DNA of 38,714 nucleotides from an uncultured Shimia sp. GTDB lineage: Bacteria > Pseudomonadota > Alphaproteobacteria > Rhodobacterales > Rhodobacteraceae. The stretch lies in NCBI RefSeq assembly GCF_913054185.1, contig NZ_CAJXIV010000032.1, forward strand, positions 1 to 38,714. Reading direction: 5' to 3'. Made by a program: the position numbers and the translations under genes. This document shows positions 1,480-1,542 of the stretch, in pieces (within the stretch, counting starts at the first letter, position 1; each line of letters starts with the position of its first letter). The notes under the pieces were generated by a model. The model did no database searches and was not told the DNA's origin. It saw only the letters and a list, made by a program, of their open reading frames with translations.

Positions 1480-1542
1480 GCGCAGAGGTTGCCGGAAGGG
1501 GCCTTCGCGCGGACTGTCGCTTTGCACAAGGACGGGTCAATG
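1480..1542 (+). promoter_or_regulatory. Candidate ROSE-like RNA thermometer in the hsp20 leader
   Basis: The roughly 60-base leader folds by eye into two hairpins. The first pairs 1480-1488 with 1502-1510, with one A-C mismatch and one G-U. The second is at the start codon: GUC (1516-1518) pairs with GAC (1531-1533), G1519 is bulged, and CUU (1520-1522) pairs with AAG (1528-1530). The stem can be extended by U1515-G1534 and C1514-G1535. It hides the AAGGA Shine-Dalgarno sequence seven bases before the ATG. The opposing strand reads UCGCU, matching the U(U/C)GCU element of known ROSE thermometers, which also have a bulged G opposite the Shine-Dalgarno sequence. Known ROSE elements control small heat-shock genes in alphaproteobacteria. 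The fold is drawn by hand, not computed. Confidence 0.65.

Follow-up and report, generated by a model that had tools for sequence, protein, structure and literature searches.

A Two-Hairpin, ROSE-like Candidate RNA Thermometer in the hsp20 Leader of a Shimia Species and Its Relatives in the Rhodobacteraceae

The leader of hsp20 in an uncultured Shimia sp. is very probably a ROSE-like RNA thermometer in a two-hairpin form, in which the second hairpin encloses the Shine–Dalgarno (SD) sequence and would open upon heating. This reading is based on the sequence, on its conservation and covariation among related leaders, on the closed SD in the computed fold, and on the association with hsp20. From these features, we infer melting in the physiological range and an effect on translation.

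The hsp20 leader and its relatives

The window, which is the whole 38,714-nucleotide stretch of DNA that was analyzed, is contained in a 4.04 Mb draft genome (G000; contig C32), and its nearest named comparison loci are those of Pelagimonas and other Rhodobacteraceae/Roseobacteraceae. By direct reading, the start codon of hsp20 is the ATG at 1540–1542. The DUF1150 gene follows hsp20 after a gap of 4 nt and is probably cotranscribed with it as an operon, in which case it would be governed by the same leader. The features of the locus are as follows.

1444–1472, + strand: sigma32-like promoter, with CTTGCA (1444–1449), a 15 nt spacer, and CCCCATAT (1465–1472), from comparison of the sequence with the E. 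coli sigma32 consensus
1480–1510, + strand: hairpin I, with UUGCC at 1489–1493 (G1491 unpaired) facing GGGG at 1498–1501 (MFE fold)
1514–1535, + strand: hairpin II, the proposed temperature-sensing hairpin, with UCGCU at 1517–1521 and unpaired G1519 (MFE fold and RNAalifold)
1528–1532, + strand: SD sequence AAGGA, sequestered in hairpin II in the computed fold, its last nucleotide 7 nt before the ATG at 1540
1540–1950, + strand: hsp20 (Hsp20/alpha-crystallin family; PF00011, E = 2.9e-17), the gene proposed to be regulated
1955–2182, + strand: DUF1150 gene directly 3′ of hsp20 (PF06620, E = 2.1e-20)

The promoter, CTTGCA-N15-CCCCATAT, fits the E. coli sigma32 consensus as quoted in PMC3669281, and transcription of hsp20 would start near 1478–1480. 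With a lenient pattern, a CCATAT-like box lying 55–80 nt upstream of the start and preceded by TTG was found in all 115 hsp20 leaders analyzed, and the boxes have one common spacing in 107 of the 115.

The earlier note on this DNA had proposed, from the letters alone, that the AAGGA of hsp20 pairs with UCGCU around a bulged G1519 and that a longer hairpin precedes this short one. The MFE folds agree on both counts, with pairs 1517–1522/1528–1532 retained from 10 to 42 °C and hairpin I occupying 1480–1510. Hairpin II, which is present at all five temperatures (10, 20, 30, 37, and 42 °C), is composed of the pairs C1514-G1535, U1515-G1534, G1516-C1533, U1517-A1532, C1518-G1531, C1520-G1530, U1521-A1529, and U1522-A1528, with a loop at 1523–1527 and with G1519 left unpaired between C1518-G1531 and C1520-G1530. 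At 10–37 °C, hairpin I is formed by 1480–1483/1507–1510, 1485–1490/1500–1505, and C1492-C1493/G1498-G1499, leaving G1491 unpaired, and U1490-G1500 no longer pairs at 42 °C. Only 1511–1513 separate the two hairpins. The AAGGGG of hairpin I (on the 1498–1501 side), which stands beside UUGCC at 1489–1493, is itself SD-like and mirrors hairpin II; it is too distant from the ATG at 1540 to serve hsp20 and is possibly a duplication or a standby site.

Folding energy offered no proof for the hsp20 leader, as its z-scores were unremarkable (−0.95 for 1470–1560, −0.58 for 1480–1545, and +0.67 for 1440–1570). Because the folding energy is ordinary, the case rests on the comparison among leaders. We collected 116 hsp20 leaders, 36 from genomes of the family and 80 from named loci that are presumed to belong to it. 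The 115 that were analyzed exclude L037, an hsp20 leader of the same family in which the SD-facing motif is absent. YYGCU facing AGGR is present in all 115 related leaders, in nine of 10 leaders from other families of the class (L038–L047), and in 23 of 24 paralog-type leaders. When the rule demanded a YYGCY arm that lies opposite the SD with its G unpaired, plus two or more further pairs, the SD-facing hairpin was found in 114 of the 115 related leaders versus 2 of the 166 background genes, all of them SD-preceded and from a congener; a slightly wider rule gave 114/115 versus 12/802, the 802 including the 166. The pairing is thus conserved across homologous leaders, a point on which the earlier note had let its proposal depend. 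The anti-SD reads TCGCTT in 113 of the 114 parsed leaders and CTGCTT in the remaining one, and L066 has TCGCTT as well.

A best-register parse, which selects the register that favors the motif and for which covariation in alignment A4 and RNAalifold serve as checks, located hairpin I in all 115 leaders, with NYGCY facing GGRN and an unpaired G of its own. Its outer pairs 2, 3, and 4 are formed in 110, 100, and 86 of the 115 leaders versus 84, 50, and 48 after shuffling, and none of 2000 shuffles reached the observed values. Among the 802 congener genes, hairpin I occurs in six.

Alignment A4, which leans to the covariance model R1 (trained on 32 leaders, the window leader included), contains 98 rows, 96 of them distinct (two identical pairs). 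In it, 91.8% of the cells pair versus 59.8 and 60.9% under one-column slides, and both sides have changed in 114 cells versus 54.7 after shuffling. Hairpin I covaries strongly, with changes on both sides at seven of its nine pairs. Hairpin II is nearly invariant, with three of six pairs that never vary and a double change at one, and its flanking pairs covary between hsp20, paralog, and other-family leaders, 145 of 147 being paired at each of two positions versus 124.6 and 126.9 shuffled (outside G-C, A-U, C-G, and G-U; inside U-A, C-G, and U-G). The compensatory changes that the earlier note had sought in 1514–1535 exist mainly between these groups of leaders and are scarce within the nearly invariant hsp20 set. 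Run without a given structure on the 98 leaders, RNAalifold recovered hairpin II with its unpaired G column and, in hairpin I, the six outermost pairs; it missed the two C-G pairs that lie above the unpaired G there, so that its support for hairpin I is confined to the outer stem.

An extension of hairpin II was considered and rejected. In the plain register, pair 2 is formed in 76 of 114 leaders versus 71.3 shuffled, with 252 of 2000 shuffles reaching 76, and pairs 3 and 4 are formed in 26 and 20, below the shuffled 31.9 and 23.9. A shifted extension, GAC/GUC, is present in 56 of 115 leaders, with one side only in 5 and 15 and neither side in 39, and relatedness could explain this distribution. 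In some leaders, mostly of the Ruegeria/Phaeobacter type (L027, L070, L073, L076, L081, L084, L086–L088, L090, L091, L103, and L121), hsp20 starts with GTGTC(A/G), and the start codon seems to be shifted in comparison with the GTGTCG-ATG of many others.

Model R1 matches 98 of 100 scanned hsp20 loci, which were drawn from the 115 and of which 29 are training rows; the window leader's own score of 56 bits is that of a training member and so is no evidence. Among 295 genomes of the family, sampled at about one per genus, R1 matches 245 and finds no match in 50. Gene identity was read at fetched loci only, and the 29 loci that were fetched for the best matches in the family all contain hsp20. More than one match occurs in 19 of the 245 genomes; the best of these matches is at hsp20 in 16 genomes, while one genome has it at dnaK and two have it at a place with no gene assigned. 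Of 13 fetched loci without hsp20 in these multi-match genomes, two are dnaK and the others have no gene assignment; the extra matches away from both hsp20 and dnaK are probably due to chance. Across the class, R1 matches 17 of 289 genomes, four of them members of the family, and the 14 places matched outside the family (in 13 genomes) include three that adjoin an hsp20.

Relation to known ROSE classes

The hallmarks of ROSE-like thermometers, as given in PMC3669281 and PMC12857270, can be followed through the window leader. U(U/C)GCU in the 3′-most hairpin pairs with the SD (UCGCU at 1517–1521 with AGGA at 1529–1532), the anti-SD contains an unpaired G (G1519), the 5′ UTR of the heat-shock gene hsp20 holds two hairpins, where PMC4166951 allows two to four, and the SD is closed at low temperature in the computed fold. 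In these respects, together with the conservation, the ROSE-type layout claimed in the earlier note stands. The Rfam ROSE covariance models, which the note had named as a check, do not recognize it: the window has no match at the gathering score, RF00435 finds none on 1200–1800 at E up to 10, and ROSE_2 (RF01832) finds none in the window. R1, in turn, matches neither the hsp20 paralog locus (L002) nor E. coli ibpA (L153) at E up to 10. These searches therefore do not connect the element to classical ROSE at the level of profiles.

Below its cut-off, RF00435 finds 5 of 190 genomes of the class at E up to 0.001 and 16 of 100 genomes of the family at E up to 0.1; none of the 100 exceeds the cut-off. 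An hsp20 is present at all 21 of these subthreshold loci, and the only one in the genome of the window is the paralog on contig C8. This second hsp20 has a three-hairpin ROSE-like leader (L002 1890–1984, − strand; G000:C8:18708–18802), which scores 30.1 bits against RF00435, where the cut-off is 45.

Classical ROSE (RF00435), which is found in rhizobia and other alpha-proteobacteria, resembles the window element in its last hairpin, with UUGCU/AGGA and an unpaired G, and in its first hairpin, which leaves a G unpaired at the place corresponding to that of hairpin I (Rfam consensus cCgGcc-G-CC uuau GG ggCcGg). However, the Rfam model has three hairpins, including a long central one. Among classical-type leaders, 23 of 25 rows contain a hairpin I-like first hairpin, or 22 of 24 sites once L002 and L212, which are the same, are counted as one; among random 115-nt segments, 8 of 1000 contain it. 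Because the first hairpin with its unpaired G is common to both, we infer that the window element may be a shortened ROSE, in which the two hairpins would correspond to the first and the last one of classical alpha-proteobacterial ROSE and the central one is absent, and the two may share a common descent.

Other classes share parts of this design. ROSE_2 (RF01832), represented by E. coli ibpA, likewise has UCGCU facing AGGA, and its preceding hairpin also leaves a G unpaired (consensus CCU-G-UCC...GGA-AGG). The short ROSE-like thermometers of Pseudomonas ibpA have, as described in PMC3669281, two hairpins, the second with U(U/C)GCU opposite the SD, a sigma32 promoter, and a small heat-shock gene downstream, with a leader of 61–62 nt compared with about 60 nt in the window. 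They belong to another bacterial class, and their function was measured, whereas the window element is known from its sequence. ROSE-G also has a bulged G in an anti-SD hairpin but differs in its CUGCU, in an opposing bulged G within the SD, and in its ABC transporter genes (PMC12857270). The window element has UCGCU and leaves no base of the SD strand unpaired, and so does not belong to ROSE-G. Nor is it a fourU element, since the anti-SD is UCGCUU and no run of four U faces the SD.

A 2014 review (PMC4166951) describes ROSE elements as having two to four stem-loops and as always associated with small heat-shock genes, and ABC transporter genes were later added to the targets (PMC11342760 and PMC12857270). 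The earlier note considered a ROSE element outside the rhizobia, in a marine Roseobacter-type bacterium, worth describing. ROSE outside the rhizobia is not new: such elements are known in gamma-proteobacteria and Caulobacter according to PMC3669281, and PMC3230580 reports that, in the Roseobacter Nautella sp. R11, typical ROSE-like motifs are recognizable upstream of ibpA and hspD. As the Nautella motifs are already in print, the novelty of the window element shrinks, and what is contributed here is a variant of a known ROSE type, documented over a family.

Leaders of dnaK, lon, and other genes

R1 matches at dnaK in two genomes, and in one family genome the dnaK leader is matched better than that genome's hsp20. 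The dnaK leader of the window's own genome has a two-hairpin ROSE-like element (G000:C72:18911–18973; L254 1442–1504). All 19 dnaK leaders fetched from the genus, this one included, contain GGAU(G)CC...GGGU(C/U)C, then UC(G)CC...GGGA, and then the start codon, and hairpin II in the genus is AUC(G)CCUU facing AAGGGAU. The observation on dnaK draws on L244–L262, L272–L301, and L430–L459. Of 50 dnaK leaders of the family, 36 have hairpin I with at least two outer pairs and 34 have hairpin II, against a background of 6 and 12 of 802; in dnaK leaders of other families, the counts are two of nine and none of nine. A relaxed two-hairpin scan of 1.91 Mb of a second genome (G004) gave scores above 26 only at dnaK (35) and hsp20 (28), whereas a strict scan of part of this genome detected dnaK and missed hsp20. 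In the same 1.91 Mb, groS, groL, hslV, hslU, and clpX have neither hairpin, and neither clpB nor htpG was among the matches listed, the htpG query being a fragment.

For dnaK, a second model (R2) was trained on 21 leaders and finds a match in 119 of the 198 family genomes scanned; gene identity was again read at fetched loci only, and all 30 fetched best loci are dnaK. R2 overlaps R1 sites in four genomes (G354, G377, G416, and G438), with hsp20 confirmed at G377 only. Together with the two R1 matches at dnaK, these overlaps hint at one kind of element. However, R2 has no match to the window, to L002, or to the lon locus of the window's genome (L394) at E up to 1, which counts against a single sequence family. 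Covariation in the dnaK leaders is weak, with both sides changed in 11 cells versus 5.2 shuffled and at four pairs versus 2.9. Four of the seven pairs of dnaK hairpin II never vary, and the C-G pair between anti-SD and SD is replaced by U-A in 3 of 35. Among the papers listed in literature searches, none had a title pointing to a ROSE element at dnaK.

In lon leaders of the family, hairpin I is present in 17 of 30 (L307/L394, in the own genome at G000:C29:18830–18858, and L395–L423), and a YYGCY hairpin with two extra pairs is present in none of the 30, the own-genome lon having a weaker one. In several lon leaders, the region around the SD reads otherwise, with GUCUUGCC...CAAGGA. Overall, hairpin I with the unpaired G is found in 108 of 115 hsp20, 36 of 50 dnaK, and 17 of 30 lon leaders versus 6 of 802 background genes. 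On the side, the pattern TCGCYTN{2,12}AAGGRN{4,12}ATG has 12 matches in the whole genome of the window versus three for the reversed pattern; they lie before hsp20, dnaK, lon, and a 260-aa ORF (L302; G000:C7:10382–10408), and the rest before short ORFs. The product of this 260-aa ORF resembles an HpcH/aldolase-type protein.

It is conceivable, and we propose it tentatively, that the Rhodobacteraceae possess a ROSE regulon with two-hairpin elements on hsp20 and dnaK, a three-hairpin element on the hsp20 paralog, and at least hairpin I retained on lon, in which NYGCY opposite GGGN with the unpaired G, the core of hairpin I, would be a second functional ROSE signature. We hold this as less than an even prospect, taking into account that R2 matches none of the window, L002, and lon and that RNAalifold supports the outer stem of hairpin I only. 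The same recurrence of hairpin I with its unpaired G in hsp20, dnaK, and lon leaders, with lon lacking the YYGCY hairpin, would also be expected if hairpin I, and perhaps GUCGCUU...AAGGAC, were binding sites of a protein or small RNA that coregulates the three genes and conveys temperature. Such a factor appears unlikely, however, since none is known, repression can be explained by hairpin II alone, and hairpin I maintains the pairing of its outer stem through changes of sequence there, the constant part being the YGCC/GGG core.

Temperature response and biological meaning

The thermometer reading calls for an SD that is closed in the cold, and the earlier note's expectation that AAGGA would not lie open at low temperature agrees with the computed unpaired probability of 0.04 at 20 °C; the value remains 0.04 at 25 °C and is 0.09 at 42 °C. 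In the same computation, the SD of the known thermometer E. coli ibpA opens from 0.13 to 0.31. Nearest-neighbor folding is therefore uninformative as proof of melting, for the window leader as for E. coli ibpA. The SD is less accessible than the window's 4% at 25 °C in 11% of the 166 background genes, and the median accessibility at this temperature is 0.11 in related hsp20 leaders versus 0.36 in the background.

Removal of G1519 in silico stabilizes hairpin II by 3.8 kcal/mol at 37 °C (−10.4 versus −6.6 kcal/mol) and lowers the opening of the SD at 42 °C from 0.091 to 0.004. In P. aeruginosa, the deletion dG39 gave a repressed thermometer (PMC3669281), and the deleted base is probably the counterpart, by analogy, of the unpaired G in hairpin II. 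The same source reports for Pseudomonas that hairpin II is sufficient alone and hairpin I stays unmelted, that disruption of four hairpin I pairs leads to derepression, and that the function of 5′ hairpins is incompletely understood; it also mentions noncanonical pairs in the sensing hairpin of ROSE-like elements.

On this model, the hsp20 mRNA transcribed from the sigma32-type promoter would begin with some 60 nt of leader, in which hairpin I would fold first and remain stable. The anti-SD UCGCUU would then pair with AAGGA around the unpaired G1519 and exclude ribosomes at normal temperature. Upon heating, hairpin II would loosen, the SD would be freed, and Hsp20 would be made, so that the thermometer would add fast translational control on top of sigma32 transcription.

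It is improbable, in our assessment, that the hairpins are real but merely fix a low rate of translation or stabilize the mRNA, with induction being purely transcriptional via sigma32. Such an arrangement would accord with the sigma32-like promoter in all 115 leaders, with a computed SD opening that is nearly flat from 20 to 42 °C, and with the report that Hsp20 of Dinoroseobacter shibae is upregulated under peroxide, superoxide, and thiol stress, heat not being the sole cue (PMC8007024). However, the unpaired G that weakens the stem would be needless for fixed repression, yet it is kept (TCGCTT in 113 of 114), and the architecture equals that of thermometers validated in PMC3669281. That a GC-rich structure arose by chance close to the start codon, as the unremarkable folding z-scores might suggest, is scarcely credible in view of the conservation, the covariation, and the low background rate (2/166 and 12/802).

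If the thermometer reading is true, a main small heat-shock gene would be under a heat-labile translational switch throughout a family whose members include marine bacteria. The Rfam ROSE models miss this hsp20 element. Should the dnaK element be a thermometer as well, ROSE would control a core chaperone, beyond the small heat-shock and ABC transporter genes. Moreover, the shared core of hairpin I makes the role of the ROSE 5′ hairpins directly testable.
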